The position numbers and the translations under genes are program-made. Under the pieces are notes generated by a model, which did not search any database, had not been told where the DNA came from, and saw only the letters and a list, made by a program, of their open reading frames with translations. Positions 19,080-61,604 of a DNA stretch of 64,000 nucleotides are shown here, piece by piece. This stretch comes from Comamonas sp. GTDB taxonomy: Bacteria > Pseudomonadota > Gammaproteobacteria > Burkholderiales > Burkholderiaceae_C. The stretch lies in the NCBI GenBank assembly GCA_021166775.1, contig JAJPEQ010000011.1:1-64000 (forward strand). Reading direction: 5' to 3'. How positions within the stretch are numbered: position 1 is the first letter of the stretch; the number at the start of each line of letters is the position of its first letter.

Positions 19080-19250
19080 ATGGCGCTGTATTGCGCTGCC
19101 AAGACGGCGGCGTTCGCGGCGGCCGTCACTGCTGGCGCGGCTTGGGGCACGGCGATTCTGCATGCATGGACCGAGGCCGATCAGGCGCTGTGGGCCGGCG
19201 TGCTCAACTTCTGGTTCCTTGGTCGCGTGTTCGACCGGGTGCGGCCGTGA
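19080..19250 (+). CDS. Small holin-like phage membrane protein
   Basis: 56 residues from ATG 19080 (MALYCAAKTAAFAAAVTAGA), with a hydrophobic Ala-rich helix and a second hydrophobic segment near LWAGVLNFWFLGRVF. Its TGA overlaps the GTG of the lysozyme remnant (GTGA), the usual coupling of holin and endolysin genes in phage lysis cassettes. The holin role is inferred from size, helices and neighbour; there is no unique motif. Confidence 0.5.
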   Translation: MALYCAAKTAAFAAAVTAGAAWGTAILHAWTEADQALWAGVLNFWFLGRVFDRVRP

Positions 19251-19531
19251 TCGGAGTGCCGCAGGCAGCGGTCGATCTGGCCAAGCGGTTCGAGGGATTC
19301 CACCGCGTGCCGAAGTCCGACCCCGGTCGCGCCCATCCCTATGTCTGCCCGGCCGGCTTCTGGACGATCGGCTACGGCCACCTCTGCGACCCGACGCATC
19401 CGCCGATCACGGATGCCGAGGGCGAGGCCTACCTGGCGCAAGACTTGATGACCGCCCTCAGCGCAACGTTGCGCTTCTGCCCGGTGCTGTCCACCGAAAC
19501 CGAAGGTCGTCTCGCGGCTACGCGTGCCTGA
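19247..19531 (+). pseudogene. Truncated phage lysozyme (GH24 endolysin) remnant
   Basis: 94 codons from the GTG overlapping the holin stop. The N-terminal half is clear: AVDLAKRFEGFHRVPKSDPG with the catalytic Glu, then VCPAGFWTIGYGHLCDP, the GH24 active-site block. The sequence fails just after LSTETEGRLAA, where lysozymes normally continue into about 70 more residues, and stops at TRA. GH24 enzymes are usually 145-190 residues, so this copy lacks its C-terminal lobe and is probably inactive. The break lies 98 bp upstream of the AbiE gene. Confidence 0.75.
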
Positions 19532-19629: not shown

Positions 19630-20229
19630 ATGGACACGACCGCCGACAAGCTGCTGGAGCTGGTGCGCACGCGGGGACTGCTGCGCCCGCACGATCTGGC
19701 CCCACTGGGCATCCCACGGGTGGCCCTGACGCGGGCCGTTCGGCGCGGGCAACTGGAGCGCGTCGGGCGCGGCCTGTACGGCCTCGTGGCGCGTCCGGTG
19801 TCCGCCCACGGCACGCTGGCCGAAGTCGCGCGCCGCGTGCCCAAGGGCGTGGTCTGCCTGCTGTCGGCGCTGCGCGTCCACGACCTAACGACCCAGGCCC
19901 CGTTCGAGGTGTGGCTGGCCATCGACAACAAGGCCGCTGCCCCGAAGCTGGACTACCCGCCGCTACGTCTCGTGCGCTTCTCCGGCGCGGCGCTGAGCGA
20001 GGGCGTCGAGGAACACGTTGTCGATGGTGTGACCGTCCACGTGACCAGCGTCGCCAAGACGGTGGCCGACTGCTTCAAGTACCGTAACAAGATCGGCATC
20101 GACGTGGCGCTGGAAGCGCTGCGCGAGGCGTGGAACGCCAAGCGCATGACCAGCGACGAGATATGGCACTACGCCAAGATCGACCGCGTCGCCAACGTGA
20201 TGCGTCCCTATCTGGAGAGCCTGGCATGA
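19630..20229 (+). CDS. abiEi: AbiEi-type antitoxin / transcriptional repressor
   Basis: 199 residues starting MDTTADKLLELVRTRGLLRP. The N-terminal 60 residues form a winged helix ending in RGQLERVGRGLYGLVAR, typical of AbiEi. The C-terminal part (VPKGVVCLLSALRVHDLT, then SVAKTVADCFKYRNKIG) matches the AbiEi antitoxin domain. Members neutralise AbiEii indirectly (type IV) and repress the operon. The stop overlaps the toxin start (ATGA). It is preceded by its own promoter and no good ribosome binding site. Confidence 0.88.
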   Translation: MDTTADKLLELVRTRGLLRPHDLAPLGIPRVALTRAVRRGQLERVGRGLYGLVARPVSAHGTLAEVARRVPKGVVCLLSALRVHDLTTQAPFEVWLAIDNKAAAPKLDYPPLRLVRFSGAALSEGVEEHVVDGVTVHVTSVAKTVADCFKYRNKIGIDVALEALREAWNAKRMTSDEIWHYAKIDRVANVMRPYLESLA

Positions 20230-21149
20230 ACGAACCTGACAAGACCAGGCGCAATGTCGCCGCGTCGGTTCGCGCCCGGCTGCTCAACAAGGCCCGGGCC
20301 GACAAACTCGACTTCAACCTGCTTCTGACCCGCTACGCGCTGGAGCGCGTCCTGTACCGCCTGAGCGTTTCGGAGCAGCACGGTCAATTCTTGCTCAAAG
20401 GTGCGCTGCTGTTCGACATCTGGTTCGACGTGCCGCATCGCCCGACGCACGATGCCGACCTGCTCGGCTTTGGCTCCACCGAAATCCCGCATCTGGAGAA
20501 TCTATTTCGCCAGATCAGTCAGATTGCCTGCGATGACGGCATCGTGTTTCAGGCCGACAGCGTGAAGGCCGCCGAAATCCGCAAGGAGGCCAACTACGCG
20601 GGCGTCCGCGTGACGATGATCGGCCTGCTCGATGGCGCGCGCTGCCCGGTGCAGATCGACATCGGCTTTGGCGACGCCGTGACGCCCGGCCCGGACAACG
20701 TGCAGTACCCGGTCATCCTCGACGGCATGCCGCAGCCGCAACTGCGGGTCTATCCCCGCTACACCGTGGTCGCCGAAAAGCTCGAAGCGATGGCCAAGCT
20801 CGGCATCCTCAACAGTCGGATGAAGGACTACTTCGACCTCTGGGTTCTCGCCGGACATTCCGACTTCGACGGAGCGGTACTGGCCACGGCCATTCGCGCC
20901 ACGTTCGAGCGCAGGGGTACGGCCATCCCGCCCGGAGCGCCGCTGGGCCTCACCGATGAGTTCGGCCTGGACGAGCAGAAGACAAAGCAGTGGCAGGCGT
21001 TCCTGCGCAAGAACACCTTGGAGCCGATGCCGCTCAAGACGGTGATCGAGGCGCTGCGCGAATTTGTGTTGCCCGTGCTGGCCGCGCTCGCGGCAGGCGA
21101 AGGTTTCGACCGCCAGTGGCGCGCGGGCGCGGGATGGGATGCGGCCTGA
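20226..21149 (+). CDS. abiEii: AbiEii-type nucleotidyltransferase toxin
   Basis: 307 residues. The nucleotidyltransferase core is visible in GQFLLKGALLFDIWFDVPHR followed by PTHDADLLGFGS, with the metal-binding Asp pair in DAD. Further family blocks are CPVQIDIGFGDAV, YTVVAEKLEAMAKLGI and SRMKDYFDLWVLA. AbiEii proteins block growth after phage infection; studied relatives use nucleotides to modify target RNAs. The gene looks intact and is coupled to abiEi. A tRNA-like fragment begins 18 bp after the stop, marking the island edge. Confidence 0.9.
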   Translation: MNEPDKTRRNVAASVRARLLNKARADKLDFNLLLTRYALERVLYRLSVSEQHGQFLLKGALLFDIWFDVPHRPTHDADLLGFGSTEIPHLENLFRQISQIACDDGIVFQADSVKAAEIRKEANYAGVRVTMIGLLDGARCPVQIDIGFGDAVTPGPDNVQYPVILDGMPQPQLRVYPRYTVVAEKLEAMAKLGILNSRMKDYFDLWVLAGHSDFDGAVLATAIRATFERRGTAIPPGAPLGLTDEFGLDEQKTKQWQAFLRKNTLEPMPLKTVIEALREFVLPVLAALAAGEGFDRQWRAGAGWDAA

Positions 21150-55467: not shown

Positions 55468-55840
55468 GGTGCTTGGCTCGTACAAGAGTGAGTTGGCTGA
55501 AAACCCTCTATTAGGCCATAGTTGGCAAGGCCGGGTGCCTCCTGCGCCGCGCTGCACCAGTGGTCGCACATGCCCACATCCGGCCTTTCCGCCGGGACGC
55601 CCCGATACCACGCCCACGGCCCACGCTCCTTTCAGGCACCAGCACCGCATCCAATTCATCGAGGTGGGGTGCGCATGCTGCAGGCGCAGGTCGAGCAGCG
55701 CCGTTTCCTGCCGCTCAGGGAGCGGAACGTGAAAAGTGGGACTCCGTGCGCAAACCTGGGACGCTTGACCATGAAATGGCGTCTCGCGCTCCGACGCCCG
55801 GCCCTACACTGAACTTGCGCATCGGTGTGGCCGCGCCTGA
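55468..55840 (+). other. Non-coding stretch upstream of the MITE-like element
   Basis: No frame gives recognisable protein; the few open frames disagree with each other and lack ribosome binding sites. It may contain the promoter of the small minus-strand gene. Confidence 0.4.
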
Positions 55841-56093: not shown

Positions 56094-57674
56094 ATGAACC
56101 TCCCGTACCTCCTGCGTCCACTGGCGCCAGTCGCCCTGACCCTCGGCCTGCTCACGGCTTGCGGCGGGAACGGCGACGCACCGTCCCTGCATCCCGTGGT
56201 GCCCGCTGCGGTGCAGCAGGCGGTGGCGCAGCTCGACACCCTGGTGCCGCAGCTCATGGCGCGCACCGGCGTGCCGGGCGTGGCGGTATCGGTGGTCTAC
56301 GGGGGGCAGACGCTGTACGCGCGTGGCTTCGGCGCGCGCAAGCTGGGCGAGAGCGCACCGGTGGATGCCGACACCGTGTTCCAGCTCGCCTCGGTATCCA
56401 AGTCGATTGGCTCCACGGTGATGGCCGGCCAGATGCCGGGCAGCGCGGTGAACAGCCCGATCGACTGGAACACGCCGATCCAGCAGCTGCTGCCCGACCT
56501 TGAGCTTGCATACGCCGACCCCACGCTCAACGCGCGCCTGACGCTGGGCAACCTGTACGCCCACCGCTCGGGTCTGCACGACCACGCGGGCGATCGTCTG
56601 GAAGACCTGGGCTACAGCCGCGCCGAAGTCCTGCAACGTCTGCGCTGGGCCAAGCTGGAGTCTTTCGGCAGTTACTTCTACACCAACTTCGGCCTCACCG
56701 CCGCCGCCGAGGGCATGGCACGCGCCATGGGTGCCGACTGGGCCACGCTGTCGGAGCGCACGCTCTACCAGCCCCTGGGCATGGCGCACACCAGCTCTCG
56801 CTATGCCGACTTTGTTCTGCAGGGCAACCGCGCCTGGGGCCATGTGCAGATCGGCGTCACCTACGACAGCTACGGGGCCCAGCCGGCGCAGTACGAAGTG
56901 CAGGACCCGCCGCGCCAGCCCGACGCGCAATCGCCTGCTGGTGGCGTCAGCTCGACGGCCGCCGACATGGCGCGCTGGATGACGCTGGTGCTCGACCAAG
57001 GCCGGTGGCAAGGCAAGACGCTGCTCAGCCGCAAAGCGCTGGAGGCCGCGACGACGGCGCAGCCCGGCGGGCGCTACGGCTATGGCTTCAATGCCGGACC
57101 CGACCTGCACGGCCACCCCAGCCTGTCGCACAGCGGCGGGTTCGCGCTGGGCGCGGGCACATCCTTCGTGTTGTGGCCCGAGGCGGGCTTGGGCATCACG
57201 GTGCTCACCAACGCCCAGCCGCGCGGACTGGCCGAGGCCATCGCCCTGGCCTTTGGCGAGCAGGCGCTGGGCGACGTGCCTGCTGGCGCGCCCAGCCGCT
57301 ATTGGCTGGACTTCATGCAGCCGCAGATGCACGAGCTTTACAAGCCCGAGGGGGAACTGGCGGGTCAGCCGCCGCCGGCCCGTCCCGCACCGCCGCAGCC
57401 GTTGGTCGGCTACACCGGCCGCTACACCAACGCCTATTACGGCGACGCGCAGATCAGCCTGAGCGCCGACGGCGCCGCGCTCGAGCTCGCGATCGGCGCG
57501 CCGCCGCTGCGCTACGCACTCCGCCACTGGGACGGCGACGAATTCGCTTTCGACCTGATGGGCGAGAACGCCCCGCGTGGCTCGGTCTCGGCGGTGCGCT
57601 TCGCCCCGGGCGAGATGCGCATCGAATATTTCGGCCGCGACGTGACGCAAGGCCGGTTCACCCGTTTGCCCTGA
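56094..57674 (+). CDS. Serine hydrolase lipoprotein, class C beta-lactamase fold
   Basis: 526 residues from ATG 56094. Signal peptide with lipobox LLTAC, then GGNGD; no Asp at +2, which favours the outer membrane. The catalytic set is complete: SVSK (Ser100-Lys103), YTN (Tyr196-Asn198) and HSGG (His346). After the hydrolase domain (to about residue 410) comes a Pro-rich linker and a C-terminal beta domain beginning LVGYTGRYTNAYYGDAQISL. Relatives are esterases, D-aminopeptidases or carboxypeptidases rather than resistance enzymes. First of three lipoprotein genes, 16 bp before the next. Confidence 0.88.
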   Translation: MNLPYLLRPLAPVALTLGLLTACGGNGDAPSLHPVVPAAVQQAVAQLDTLVPQLMARTGVPGVAVSVVYGGQTLYARGFGARKLGESAPVDADTVFQLASVSKSIGSTVMAGQMPGSAVNSPIDWNTPIQQLLPDLELAYADPTLNARLTLGNLYAHRSGLHDHAGDRLEDLGYSRAEVLQRLRWAKLESFGSYFYTNFGLTAAAEGMARAMGADWATLSERTLYQPLGMAHTSSRYADFVLQGNRAWGHVQIGVTYDSYGAQPAQYEVQDPPRQPDAQSPAGGVSSTAADMARWMTLVLDQGRWQGKTLLSRKALEAATTAQPGGRYGYGFNAGPDLHGHPSLSHSGGFALGAGTSFVLWPEAGLGITVLTNAQPRGLAEAIALAFGEQALGDVPAGAPSRYWLDFMQPQMHELYKPEGELAGQPPPARPAPPQPLVGYTGRYTNAYYGDAQISLSADGAALELAIGAPPLRYALRHWDGDEFAFDLMGENAPRGSVSAVRFAPGEMRIEYFGRDVTQGRFTRLP

Positions 57675-57690
57675 CAACAAGGAGAGTTCC

Positions 57691-59727
57691 ATGTTTCAAC
57701 GCATCCACGCCGGGTTGGTCGTCCTGATCACTGCGGGTCTGCTGGCCGCCTGCGGTGGCGATGGCGGCGACGCTCCCGGCGTCAGTGCCGATGTCAGCAT
57801 GCGCATCCACATGCTGGCGGCACCCGCAGGCCGGTTGCTGCCGGGCGCTTCGCCGCAGGACTGGACCTTGGAGCTGGAACGGCCGCAACCCAATACTTTC
57901 TGGTTCGAGGACCGCCCTGGCCGCGCCAGCGGCGAGCAGGCCCTGGGCGATTTCCTGGGCGCCGCCTGGGAGCAGACCTACGGCGACATCGAACCGCACG
58001 CCACGCTGCATTTTCAGCAGGCGGGCGCGCTGCAGGCGATCTACGCCCGCGTGTCGCGCCCGGTGTATGACGCACAGTCAGGTCAGTTGCGCGTGCCGGT
58101 GTTCATCCTGGCCAACTCCGTGATCGCGATGGACGGGGCCCAGGCTCTCGGCAGCCCGCTGCTGGAGGTGCTGAACAACGCCGTCGATGACCGGGAGGTC
58201 GCTTCCTACATCCAGCATGCCGGTCAGGCGACGATCGTGCCCGAGGGCACCGCCGGCCACTACCGCCTGACCCTGCAGAACACCACCGGCCGCACGCTGA
58301 TGGTCGACAACGCCCCGGGTCAGTACCACGACAGCCGCGGCGTAGCCGAGTTCAGCGCTGGCTGGAGCAAACGATTCGCCGATCACGCGCCCAATGCCGC
58401 CGTCTACGGCACCACGGCCGCCGGCGCGACCTGGCTGTACTTCTTCACCCTGGATGCGCCACAGTTCGACGCCGCGACCAACACGCTCAGCTACAGCGCC
58501 ACCGCGCTGGGCGAGGGCCCCGCCGCCGCGCTGACCTTGGAGCAGGTTGCGCTCAATATCGACTCGGGTGCGTTCTCGCGCTTCCCCGACCTGGGCAAGG
58601 GCACGGCCTATCAGGCGTTCGGCCAAGGCTACGACCCGTCCACCGCCAACACCACCCGCATCTACTTTGGCAGCGATCCGGCACGCAAACAGTTCGGTGC
58701 GCTGTGGGGTACGCAGTCTTACCTGCAGCAGCCCTGCCAGCCCAACTGCCGAGACGATCTGCAGACCATGAAGGACATGGGCATCAACCTGGTGCGCGTC
58801 TACGACTGGGACCTGCGCAACGACCATCGTCCCTTTCTCGACCGTGCACAAAGCCTGGGCATCAAGGTGATCGTGCCGATCAGCAACTGGCTGGTGAACA
58901 ACCGGCAGTTCTGGGACGAGCAGATCCGCGACTATCTGAAACCAGGCAACTTCGCCAGCACCAGCGGTGGCGGCAAGCCCGACTGGCATCCCGCCATCGC
59001 CGGCATCACCGTCTCCAACGAGTTGGACCAGGAAATCCCGCGCGACGGTGGTGCCGCCTACCGAAGCGCCATTGACTTGACCGTGCGCTTGCTGCAGGAG
59101 GCTGAGCGCCAAGGTTTCGGCAAGAGCATGCACGTGGGCATTCCGGTCACCTTCGCACAGCGGCCGGGCGTCGCGGCGCCAGCCTGGGATCTGTTCGACC
59201 AGTTCGCCAACAAGCCTGAACTGGCGCCCTACCGTGCCCAGCTCATGCTGAACCCGAACTCCTACAACGAAGGCAAATTCCTGTTTGGCGACACACCCTC
59301 CGACCCGGCCGGCTGGATGCAGAAGACCTACGCGCGCTACAACCTGCCGGTGGTGTTCACGGAACTGGGTATGGATCGCGTGCAGCGGCCGGACTCGGTG
59401 GCGGTGGTGCGCGAGCAGCTGCAGCGCGGCCTGGCCTACCAGCAGGCGCATCCGCAGCAACTGCTCGGCTTGGTTCACTTCATGTTCGACAACAAGGTCT
59501 GGAAGCAGTCGGCCAACGGCGCGCCCGAAACCGACACCGAGGGCGCCTACGGCGCGTTCCGCCACGGCGCCACTCTCATGACCCTGCAGACCGTGAACGC
59601 CGATTACGAGTGGTACAACGGCGACACGCAGGTGAACGGCAGCTTCGTGATCGACAAACTGGAGCCCACGGCCACCTGCGCGCCGGTGGTTGAGACCTAT
59701 CAGGGCACGTTCGCGTGCACGCAGTGA
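57691..59727 (+). CDS. Exported lipoprotein with glycosidase-like TIM-barrel domain
   Basis: 678 residues from ATG 57691 with AAGGAG nine bases upstream. Lipobox LLAAC then GGDGGD. An unassigned N-terminal region (about 30-300) precedes a barrel-like domain opened by MKDMGINLVRVYDWDLRNDH and LGIKVIVPISNWLVNN. Glu444 in VSNELD and Glu558 in VFTELGMD occupy positions typical of the acid/base and nucleophile in clan A glycosidases, as in beta-1,3-glucan hydrolases and transferases. Substrate unknown. It lies between two serine hydrolase genes with short gaps. Confidence 0.75.
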   Translation: MFQRIHAGLVVLITAGLLAACGGDGGDAPGVSADVSMRIHMLAAPAGRLLPGASPQDWTLELERPQPNTFWFEDRPGRASGEQALGDFLGAAWEQTYGDIEPHATLHFQQAGALQAIYARVSRPVYDAQSGQLRVPVFILANSVIAMDGAQALGSPLLEVLNNAVDDREVASYIQHAGQATIVPEGTAGHYRLTLQNTTGRTLMVDNAPGQYHDSRGVAEFSAGWSKRFADHAPNAAVYGTTAAGATWLYFFTLDAPQFDAATNTLSYSATALGEGPAAALTLEQVALNIDSGAFSRFPDLGKGTAYQAFGQGYDPSTANTTRIYFGSDPARKQFGALWGTQSYLQQPCQPNCRDDLQTMKDMGINLVRVYDWDLRNDHRPFLDRAQSLGIKVIVPISNWLVNNRQFWDEQIRDYLKPGNFASTSGGGKPDWHPAIAGITVSNELDQEIPRDGGAAYRSAIDLTVRLLQEAERQGFGKSMHVGIPVTFAQRPGVAAPAWDLFDQFANKPELAPYRAQLMLNPNSYNEGKFLFGDTPSDPAGWMQKTYARYNLPVVFTELGMDRVQRPDSVAVVREQLQRGLAYQQAHPQQLLGLVHFMFDNKVWKQSANGAPETDTEGAYGAFRHGATLMTLQTVNADYEWYNGDTQVNGSFVIDKLEPTATCAPVVETYQGTFACTQ

Positions 59728-59735
59728 ACCGTGCC

Positions 59736-61604
59736 ATGACCACGAACGATCCACCCATCCCCATGCGCGGCGCCTGCCGTTTCGAGCCCTTGTCCAGCGC
59801 GCGCTGGCCCCGTCGGCGCCTGCTCCAGTGGGCCGGGACCGGCGCCTTGCTGCCGCTGCTGCCAGCCTGCGGTGGTGGCGATGATCCTCCCGATGCCGAG
59901 CACCTGGCCGAGGCGATTGACTGGGGCAAGCAGGCCATCGGGCAGGCGCTGCAGAGCACCGAGACCTCGGCCATCTCGGTCGCGCTGATGACCGAGGCCG
60001 GCGTGATCTGGCAGCAGGCCTTCGGCATGGCCGACCGTGCCGCCAGCCTGGCCGCTACGACGCAGACGCGTTTCAACGTCGGCTCGGTCAGCAAGGTGGT
60101 GGCGGCGCTGGCCGCCATGATCCTGTGCGACCGCGGCCAGCTCAGCCTGGATGCGCCCATCGCGCCGAGCCTGCCCGGCTTCACCATGTTGTCGCAGGGC
60201 TACCGCCGCATCACGCTGCGCCACCTGCTCAGCCACTCGTCGGGCCTGCCGGGCACCGATGCGCGCAACGTGTTCAGTTTCGCGCCCATTCCCGGCTATG
60301 CGCAGGACGGCGAACAAGGCCTGGCCTACTACCACCTCAAGCACGAGCCGGGCGAGCTGGCGGTGTACTGCAACGATGGCTTCACGATGGTCGAGTTGCT
60401 GGTGCTGGCCGCCACCGGCTTGCCCTACGCGCGTTTCGTGCAGCAGGAAATCTTCACGCCGCTGGGCATGGATCGCACGGAAATCCCGTTACAGCCTCTC
60501 GCCTCCGGCGCCTACGTCCACGCCTACAGCGGCGGGCAGCGCATGGGCCAGGAGTTCGTCAATGCCCACGCCACGGGCGGCGTGGCCTCGACGCCGGCCG
60601 ACATGATGAAGCTGGCCGCCCTGTTTCTGAATGAGGGTATCCATGAGGGTCGGCGCATCGTCTCCGCCGCAGCCGTGCGCGAGATGGGCCGCGACCAGAG
60701 CGCCGACCTGCGTATCAACCCCAGCCCGGAATGGCGCTGGGGTCTGGGCTGGGACAACGTGCGCCAGCTTGGCCTGGCCGGGGCCGGCATCGACGCCTGG
60801 ACCAAGAACGGCGGCACCACGTTCTTTGCCTCCGAGTTCTTCGTGCTGCCGCGTCAGCGCATGGCGCTGTTCATCAGCGGCTCCAGCCACACCTACGGTT
60901 CGCTGCCGATCGCCGAAGGCATCCTGCTGCGCGCGCTGCGGCGCACCGGGGCCATCGCCAAGCTGCCGTCGCCGCTCGTGCTCACCCCGCCGCCTTCGGC
61001 GTCCAGCCCGCCTGACACGGCCGGGCTGGAAGGCGTTTTCGGCAGTTCTCAGGCCCCGTTGAAGGTGCGTGCCAGCGGTGCTGCCGTCGACCTGCTGGAG
61101 TGGAAGCAGGGCGCCTGGCAGCCGCTGGCGCAGGGGCTGACGCTGCGCACCGACGGCTGGTGGTGGAGCGAGGCGCGGTCGGCGCCGTGCTACCGCTGGA
61201 TCCAGGCCGGTGGCCTGGACTATCTGATGCGCCGATCCACCGGTGGCTCCGGCCACTACCAATACGTCCTTCCATTGGCCCAGCGCTTGGCGCCGCTGGC
61301 CACCGAGCTGCCTGCTGGCTGGCGCGCGCGCATCGGTAGCCGCTGGCAGCCCATCAACGAATCGCCCGAATCCACCGCGCCAACCGAGCTGCAGATCACC
61401 ACCCTCGATCTGCTGCCCGACCTGCCCGGCTACGTGTTGTGGGGCGGCACCCAATTGCTGGTTGCCGACAGCGACGACCACGCCGGCATGGCCGTCAAGG
61501 TGCCCGGAAACAATGGCCGCGATCTGGACGAACTGCATGCCGAAATGCACGACGGTCAGGAGCTGCTGCGCACCGGCACCCTGCTGTATCGACGACTGTC
61601 CTGA
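59736..61604 (+). CDS. Second serine hydrolase lipoprotein, probable Tat substrate
   Basis: 622 residues from ATG 59736, eight bases after the previous stop. The export signal has the twin-arginine pattern RWPRRRLLQWAGTGALLPLL ending in lipobox LPAC. Catalytic motifs: SVSK (Ser117-Lys120), YCN (Tyr211-Asn213) and KNGG (357-360) in place of KTG. After residue 410 there is an extra domain of about 200 residues with no recognisable family. It differs clearly from the first hydrolase of the operon in export route and C-terminal part. Confidence 0.85.
   Translation: MTTNDPPIPMRGACRFEPLSSARWPRRRLLQWAGTGALLPLLPACGGGDDPPDAEHLAEAIDWGKQAIGQALQSTETSAISVALMTEAGVIWQQAFGMADRAASLAATTQTRFNVGSVSKVVAALAAMILCDRGQLSLDAPIAPSLPGFTMLSQGYRRITLRHLLSHSSGLPGTDARNVFSFAPIPGYAQDGEQGLAYYHLKHEPGELAVYCNDGFTMVELLVLAATGLPYARFVQQEIFTPLGMDRTEIPLQPLASGAYVHAYSGGQRMGQEFVNAHATGGVASTPADMMKLAALFLNEGIHEGRRIVSAAAVREMGRDQSADLRINPSPEWRWGLGWDNVRQLGLAGAGIDAWTKNGGTTFFASEFFVLPRQRMALFISGSSHTYGSLPIAEGILLRALRRTGAIAKLPSPLVLTPPPSASSPPDTAGLEGVFGSSQAPLKVRASGAAVDLLEWKQGAWQPLAQGLTLRTDGWWWSEARSAPCYRWIQAGGLDYLMRRSTGGSGHYQYVLPLAQRLAPLATELPAGWRARIGSRWQPINESPESTAPTELQITTLDLLPDLPGYVLWGGTQLLVADSDDHAGMAVKVPGNNGRDLDELHAEMHDGQELLRTGTLLYRRLS

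Follow-up and report, generated by a model that had tools for sequence, protein, structure and literature searches.

We analysed a stretch of 64,000 nucleotides from Comamonas sp. (GCA_021166775.1, contig JAJPEQ010000011.1, positions 1 to 64,000; hereafter the window), and in it a group of three consecutive genes for exported lipoproteins, which we call P1, P2 and P3, together with a direct repeat that lies upstream of them. An earlier note on this DNA had described reading frames separated by 16 bp (P1 to P2) and 8 bp (P2 to P3), a lipobox in each product and a twin-arginine signal in the last. The frames and gaps are as described there. The signal peptides, whose lipoboxes we judged by eye from the sequence (as we did for the P4C lipoprotein introduced below), end in LLTACGGNGD (P1), LLAACGGDGG (P2) and LLPACGGGDD (P3), and that of P3 contains the stretch RRRLLQW. 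The start of P2 is preceded by the ribosome-binding site AGGAG; no such site was visible before the start of P1, and a scan for sigma-70 promoters gave no match, with 0.5 expected by chance. The features discussed are as follows.

55738..55764, + strand: operator-like direct repeat GGGACTC-N13-GGGACGC (GGGAC-N15-GGGAC), with a 20-bp period, ~330 bp upstream of the P1 start codon
56094..57674, + strand: P1 gene, an open reading frame at the coordinates first claimed; lipoprotein, class C-like (S12) serine hydrolase with DUF3471
57691..59727, + strand: P2 gene; lipoprotein with a tandem N-terminal module (residues ~36-292) and a GH-A-like barrel (~306-660)
57796..58566, + strand: N-terminal part of P2, two module copies of ~125 residues, with no Pfam or NCBIfam match
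59020..59022, + strand: codon of P2 E444, the presumed acid/base; invariant in 10 of 10 sequences; in the alignments with Gel4 and Gas2 it falls on their NE motif
59362..59364, + strand: codon of P2 E558, the presumed nucleophile; invariant in 10 of 10 sequences, its pairing with the SEFG of Gas2 being no more than suggestive
59736..61604, + strand: P3 gene; Tat-type lipoprotein, class C-like serine hydrolase, related to PDB 9sn1 over almost its whole length

A direct repeat shared with a second locus

The repeat was first recognised by comparing the region upstream of P1 with that upstream of P4C, a lipoprotein gene that lies on a different contig, C9, of the window's own genome and 3' of the gene for an AraC-type regulator (the genome is G000; the assembly searched comprises 2.9 Mb and is 95% complete). 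Both regions contain the same repeat with the same spacing. Exact matches to GGGAC-N15-GGGAC occur at only two places in G000, position 55738 of the window and C9:105297, the latter between the regulator and P4C; the first half-site in the window reads GGGACTC, the usual form being GGGACGC. Because the pattern was taken from these two places, the remaining loci serve as tests of it. With a matrix built without the locus under test, the window site scored 26.5 bits, and no other position in the window scored above 9.8.

Exact sites stand beside cluster genes in L011, L012, L014, L016, L017 (two sites) and L018 (two), and further in L039 (two), L040 and L042 (two); L097, a wider stretch of the same cluster as L042, has three. 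The site is present in each of the two clusters of genome G300 and in three Pigmentiphaga-type loci. Across ten whole genomes we counted 31 exact matches. Both of those in G000 lie at the system, and 11 of the 29 in the nine other genomes lie at clusters (G196, one of three; G301, two of three; G136, one of four; G213, two of six; G283, two of five; G120, three of four; G294 and G270, none of two each; G095 has no match anywhere). The expected number at clusters was 0.13 (eight 20-kb loci within 35.1 Mb, rounded), as against the 11 observed (binomial probability 5.7e-19).

Controls for the spacer were run over 18 loci, namely the window and 17 loci with P2, P4C or P1 genes. A spacer of 15 gave 18 matches, which include the two places that supplied the pattern, and the other 24 spacers between 6 and 30 gave 5 together; the reversed pattern gave none. 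The site occurs in 13 of these 18 loci. It is found in 12 of the 13 with such a regulator and in one of the five lacking it, that one being the window, and in none of 12 loci outside the clusters (L043-L052, L119, L120).

The C9 regulator, 65% identical to that of G283, exceeds the cut-off for HTH_18 (61.6 bits; cut-off 33.6) and stays under that for AraC_binding_2 (22.1; cut-off 27), a domain that is over its cut-off in the regulator copies of L015 (48.6) and L017 (32.8). At E<=1e-30 the regulator family is present in four of the nine genomes of the genus (G000, G196, G300 and G301), all of which except G300 also have P1. As in AraC-controlled gene sets, an HTH_18 regulator over the cut-off is combined with a direct-repeat site upstream of the targets; the difference here is that the targets are lipoproteins and are divided over two loci.

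Several observations weigh against a regulatory link through this site. Genomes G120, G213 and G283 belong to one genus and, being close kin, do not supply fully independent matches. Five of the 18 loci have no site. L015 (G196) has a copy of the regulator beside P1 and no site, and this regulator may read another one; neither site nor such a regulator was found in the P1 cluster of L041 with L098 (G294), and the same is true of the P2 loci L009, L010 and L013. The pattern shows no enrichment in genomes as a whole: the reversed pattern outnumbers it in ten of ten (in G000 by 6 to 2), and what carries the argument is where the sites lie, how long the spacer is and the regulator, not how many sites there are. 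Taken in the window by itself the site is unremarkable, since 37 of 100 shuffles contain a match when one mismatch is tolerated. Taking both sides together, we consider it very likely, on sequence grounds, that the trio locus and the C9 locus form one regulon. Two loci lying far apart in the genome would then be linked through a short site into a regulon that can be tested.

Gene clusters in related genomes

The earlier note had treated the three genes as one unit, a view that we rejected: P3 accompanies P1 and P2 only in the window's genome among those searched, which is the outcome that the note had named as refuting it. Among 299 genomes of the family, P3 is present in five and P1 in 11 (E<=1e-60), with the window's genome alone in both sets; P2 is present in four at E<=0.001, its own counted. 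In the genus, P1 was found in three of nine genomes at E<=0.001. Seven of the 11 P1 genomes carry what we call cluster-type P1 (E <1e-200), a line placed, once the list was known, where the E-values jump from 1e-214 to 1e-126, and P1 relatives of at least ~61% identity are located in clusters of the same kind. P1 adjoins a P2-type gene in G301, G283 and G213, and in G196 it adjoins a fusion of the P2 N-terminal module with P4C, so that P1 is beside a P2-type or P2-module gene in four genomes other than the window's, from two genera; P3 is not joined to these genes elsewhere. In six P2 loci (L009-L014) neither P1 nor P3 was found within ~10 kb at E<=1e-5.

The trio appears to occupy a variable site. 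In the close relative G095, the genes that we take from their sequences to be tag (94% identical), a DUF1840-like gene and nrdA are consecutive, tag and the DUF1840-like gene being 323 bp apart; at the same place the window has 6552 bp, with the trio inside. None of P1, P2, P3, the regulator and P4C was found in G095 at the limits used, for which reason the trio locus and the C9 locus may have been gained or lost together. Composition gives no sign of a recent foreign origin: the GC content of the trio is 0.682 against 0.669 for the window, and its GC at third codon positions is no more than one standard deviation from that of 40 other genes (calls of a simple gene finder). The idea of a foreign composition was rejected on these figures, and so was a plasmid origin: P2 had no match at E<=1e-5 in a search of 72,556 plasmid records, and the 12 matches of P1 at E<=1e-60 are each below 60% identity. 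Among the phage families of PHROGs, two are matched by P1, two by P3 and none by P2 or by P0004, a fusion protein carrying the module.

In relatives the clusters vary in content and hold lipoproteins, hydrolases and AraC-type regulators, the last in up to three copies (L017, L018). The regulator and alpha/beta hydrolase genes of L017, L018 and L040 lie under antisense frames and were found by tblastn. A Tat-type alpha/beta hydrolase recurs in the clusters, its best solved relative being SMU_737 (E 1.3e-28), and the clusters of G196 and G300 contain an S13 peptidase-like gene (138.3 and 115.2 bits; cut-off 22.8). We had entertained the idea that the S13 gene in L015 was a bystander and dropped it, as G300 has S13 beside the same fusion gene.

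P4C belongs to the same setting. Its profile matches seven of the 299 genomes at E<=1e-20, the very seven with cluster-type P1, and P4C was found at this threshold in none of the 299 without cluster-type P1. Six of the seven P4C genes, however, were those from which the profile was made, and they had come to light through their position next to P1, which by itself produces most of the overlap. For that reason we do not use a chance figure of 2.5e-14 for the sharing of seven genomes; what is new is the absence of P4C from the remaining genomes and the sole additional P4C, the copy in G000, the window's own genome. A further point against the proposed system concerns P3: near its relatives in four other genomes the other members were not found, and there P3 is untied to the system.

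Two more protein families accompany the clusters. A lipoprotein of 954-977 residues occurs in three clusters with P4C (L040:12690-15569, L041:4044-6908 and L042:10911-13844), the copies being 74-85% identical to that of L040; it reached no Pfam cut-off, and no solved structure matched it below E 0.9. An exported protein family is found near AraC-type genes (L016:15482-16177, L039:14144-14863, L117:11317-12000 and L017:304-1434), with an IPTL-CTERM tail in each of the three of these four that were scanned. At a distance of 261 bp from the L017 member of this family, and ~90 bp before a regulator gene, the matrix finds a 41-bit site, and perhaps this family too is part of the regulon. The cluster flanks are alike in L016, L039 and L117, three genomes of the genus; by eye, one side carries MFS exporter-like frames and the opposite side what we take to be a nucleoside-type ABC transporter.

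The encoded proteins

The outer two genes had been credited with full class C hydrolase motifs, with differing C-terminal domains and with not being simple duplicates, and our analysis bears this out. P1 contains, in order, S100-V-S-K, Y196-T-N and H346-S-G, and P3 contains S117-V-S-K, Y211-C-N and K357-N-G, which we take to be the SxxK, YxN and KTG/HxG-type motifs of class C-like serine hydrolases. Both pass PF00144 (164.1 bits for P1 and 174 for P3; curated cut-off 27). P1 continues into DUF3471 at residues 427-490 (37.2 bits; cut-off 29.3), and P3 follows the 'Beta-lactamase family protein' of PDB 9sn1 over residues 73-618, the C-terminal part included (E 2.7e-54). Since the identity between P1 and P3 is only ~24%, they are not simple duplicates. 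With the class C-like (S12) hydrolases, among them DD-peptidases, AmpH and family VIII esterases, the two proteins share the PF00144 match and the full motifs. They differ from the named class C beta-lactamases and from AmpH in their lipid anchor and their own C-terminal domains, and in scoring far below the respective cut-offs: NF033085, the NCBIfam family of class C beta-lactamases, was not reached by the pair (57.2 and 68.1 bits against 415), and AmpH, one of the better NCBIfam matches, gave 82.9 bits for P3 and 59.5 for P1 (cut-off 266). Solved relatives of this class C-like type include the DD-peptidase 1sde, related to P3 with E 6e-19, and carboxylesterases.

For P2, two well-placed glutamates in a barrel-like domain had been proposed. 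They are E444 (in VSNELD) and E558 (in FTELG), and both are invariant in an alignment of ten sequences, made of the window's P2, L009-L014 (records of Eoetvoesiella, Pigmentiphaga, Allopusillimonas and other Alcaligenaceae), L016 (G196), L017 (G283) and L018 (G213). GH72 (PF03198) was the one Pfam family that P2 matched at E<=1, and across the ten aligned proteins GH72 was matched at this threshold by seven (best 5.4e-6) and GH5 by three. Compared with solved structures, the profile of the alignment found Gel4 (E 0.0017) and Gas2 (E 0.073); the stretch of Gas2 that sets E558 opposite SEFG scored -3.5 bits, which makes that pairing suggestive only. Foldseek with a predicted model returned 85 hits at E<=0.001, with TM scores to the query below 0.3 and residues 294-354 not resolved; among the 50 matches listed these were mostly glycosidase barrels (mannanase, GH1, Gel4, Gas2, GH5 and GH128). 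In the model E444 comes right after a strand at 436-441 and E558 right after one at 554-556. If a first strand is hidden in the unresolved 294-354, the two would count as strands 4 and 7, matching the arrangement of clan GH-A.

Three results argue against placing P2 in a glucan-active family of this kind. Its GH72 score of 24.7 bits is under the cut-off of 25.9, two of its relatives exceed the cut-off of GH5 instead of that of GH72, and confidence in the predicted model is low (mean pLDDT 64, pTM 0.51). No Pfam family was over its cut-off in P2, and NCBIfam gave no match at E<=1. Going by the Foldseek hits, P2 may share a barrel fold with the GH72 beta-1,3-glucanosyltransferases Gas2 and Gel4 and with clan GH-A, and it has the NE...TE pair of glutamates; it is set apart from GH72 by its score, the 7:3 split between GH72 and GH5, the duplicated N-terminal module and its being a bacterial lipoprotein. 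On these similarities we regard P2 as probably an active glycosidase or transglycosylase.

The N-terminal 260 residues of P2 form a duplication, copy 1 matching copy 2 with an hhalign probability of 98.6 (E 5.9e-16), and copy 2 matches stand-alone secreted proteins of the distant genome G329 with 98.9 (E 3.8e-17), each from a single comparison. These small secreted proteins (L055:1393-1923 and L056:1447-1944) correspond to one copy of the module. No Pfam or NCBIfam family matched this part of P2 at E<=1, and the module seems to form a family of its own that these libraries do not name. The module is also swapped between proteins: it is joined to a different large domain, P4C, in G196 (961 residues) and G300 (953 residues), and G300 also has a P2-type barrel without it (415 residues). 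The model of the fusion protein P0004 is poor (pLDDT 56), with 0 Foldseek hits at E<=0.001; its N-terminal module, with pLDDT mostly 70-93, still had no Foldseek hit, so its fold may be unusual or may have been missed by the program. The module, P4C and the 959-residue lipoprotein (no Pfam family over the cut-off) represent protein families for which the searched libraries offer no name.

P4C itself has no Pfam or NCBIfam family over the cut-off. It contains the invariant stretches E-Y-T and N-I-S-Y-V-D, which may correspond to the regions of the GH64 catalytic residues Glu154 and Asp170. A search of 150 genomes with the GH64 profile gave no match, and since the controls were equally matchless it is uninformative. 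Glu154, Asp170 and Thr156 are named for GH64 in PMC4758615, and PMC13251364 groups GH64 with thaumatin-like proteins and beta-1,3-glucan. The profile searches gave at best a weak pointer to GH64, and solved structures did not support it. The P4C of G000 did not reach the cut-off of PF16483 (12.7 bits against 27, E 0.074), and two of the six other members matched it at E<=10, at best with E 0.1. Compared with solved structures, the P4C profile had 0 matches at E<=10, and a changed set of seven rows found just carboxypeptidase B (E 0.094).

Proposed function and alternatives

We lean towards reading the trio as one part, the one carried by the window, of a modular set of lipid-anchored hydrolases that are exported and placed under AraC control. 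The predicted C9 regulator would bind the repeat on sensing a small molecule and turn on both loci. P2, as a retaining GH-A-type glycosidase or transglycosylase, and P4C, as a possible GH64-like enzyme, would then cut or rearrange a glucan, most likely a beta-1,3-linked one, while P1 and P3 would strip ester- or amide-linked groups from it, a task in which the alpha/beta hydrolase or the S13 peptidase-like protein could also take part in relatives. Co-induced, lipid-anchored enzymes outside a membrane probably have the appearance expected of a system for polymer utilisation or attack. The pointers to glucan are the weak similarity of P2 to GH72 and GH5 and, weaker still, that of P4C to GH64. 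With family matches this weak and no structural support, beta-1,3-glucan is put forward as a tentative and somewhat doubtful substrate, and perhaps the set serves a substituted beta-glucan.

A bolder version, which we think rather unlikely to hold in all its parts at once, would make this an inducible system, not described before, for attack on beta-1,3-glucan, be it of the fungal wall or an algal or plant polymer of the callose type. In it P2 would represent a new GH-A family and P4C a very divergent GH64-type family, joined by a swapped new carbohydrate-binding module, by serine hydrolases that clear substituents and by AraC proteins reading GGGAC-N15-GGGAC. If the glucan reading were true, it would mean a bacterial way to attack a fungal-wall polymer and possibly new glycosidase families.

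The proteins could instead remodel the cell's own envelope, with P1, P3 and the S13 protein of relatives trimming peptides and P2 and P4C cutting the glycan of peptidoglycan or another self polymer. The S13 gene, of the D-Ala-D-Ala carboxypeptidase family, in the clusters of two genomes fits such a role, as do the AmpH matches of P3 and P1, though below the cut-off, and the kinship of P3 with 1sde; that cluster-type P1 is in merely seven of 299 genomes is unlike a core wall enzyme, and neither P2 nor P4C matched a peptidoglycan hydrolase family in Pfam, so we hold remodelling to be unlikely. Degradation of an outside ester or polyester, in which P1, P3 and, in relatives, the alpha/beta hydrolase would serve as the core esterases of the family VIII type and P2 as an accessory, would agree with the recurrence of several serine hydrolase types in the clusters and with the solved carboxylesterases. 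It would hardly account for two different glycosidase-like domains that share one N-terminal module, and strikes us as very unlikely.

It is more improbable again that the three genes are chance neighbours with separate tasks, gathered at one insertion site. Such an origin would suit the association of P3 with P1 and P2 here only, among the genomes searched, and the empty site in G095. It sits poorly with the pairing of P1 with P2-type or P2-module genes in the four further genomes, with the narrow gaps between the genes and with an upstream repeat common to a second locus. The AraC-controlled set of exported hydrolases remains our preferred reading. No paper on this gene set was found in a literature search that did not include the site sequence and did not cover most subscription papers; nor was any paper found containing the word DUF3471, and a search on the entry code 9sn1 gave only unrelated papers.

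Elsewhere in the window, an overlapping gene pair lies at 19630-20229 and 20226-21149, which looks like an AbiEi/AbiEii toxin-antitoxin pair and may be one. Beside it, a short frame at 19247-19531 resembles part of a phage lysozyme.

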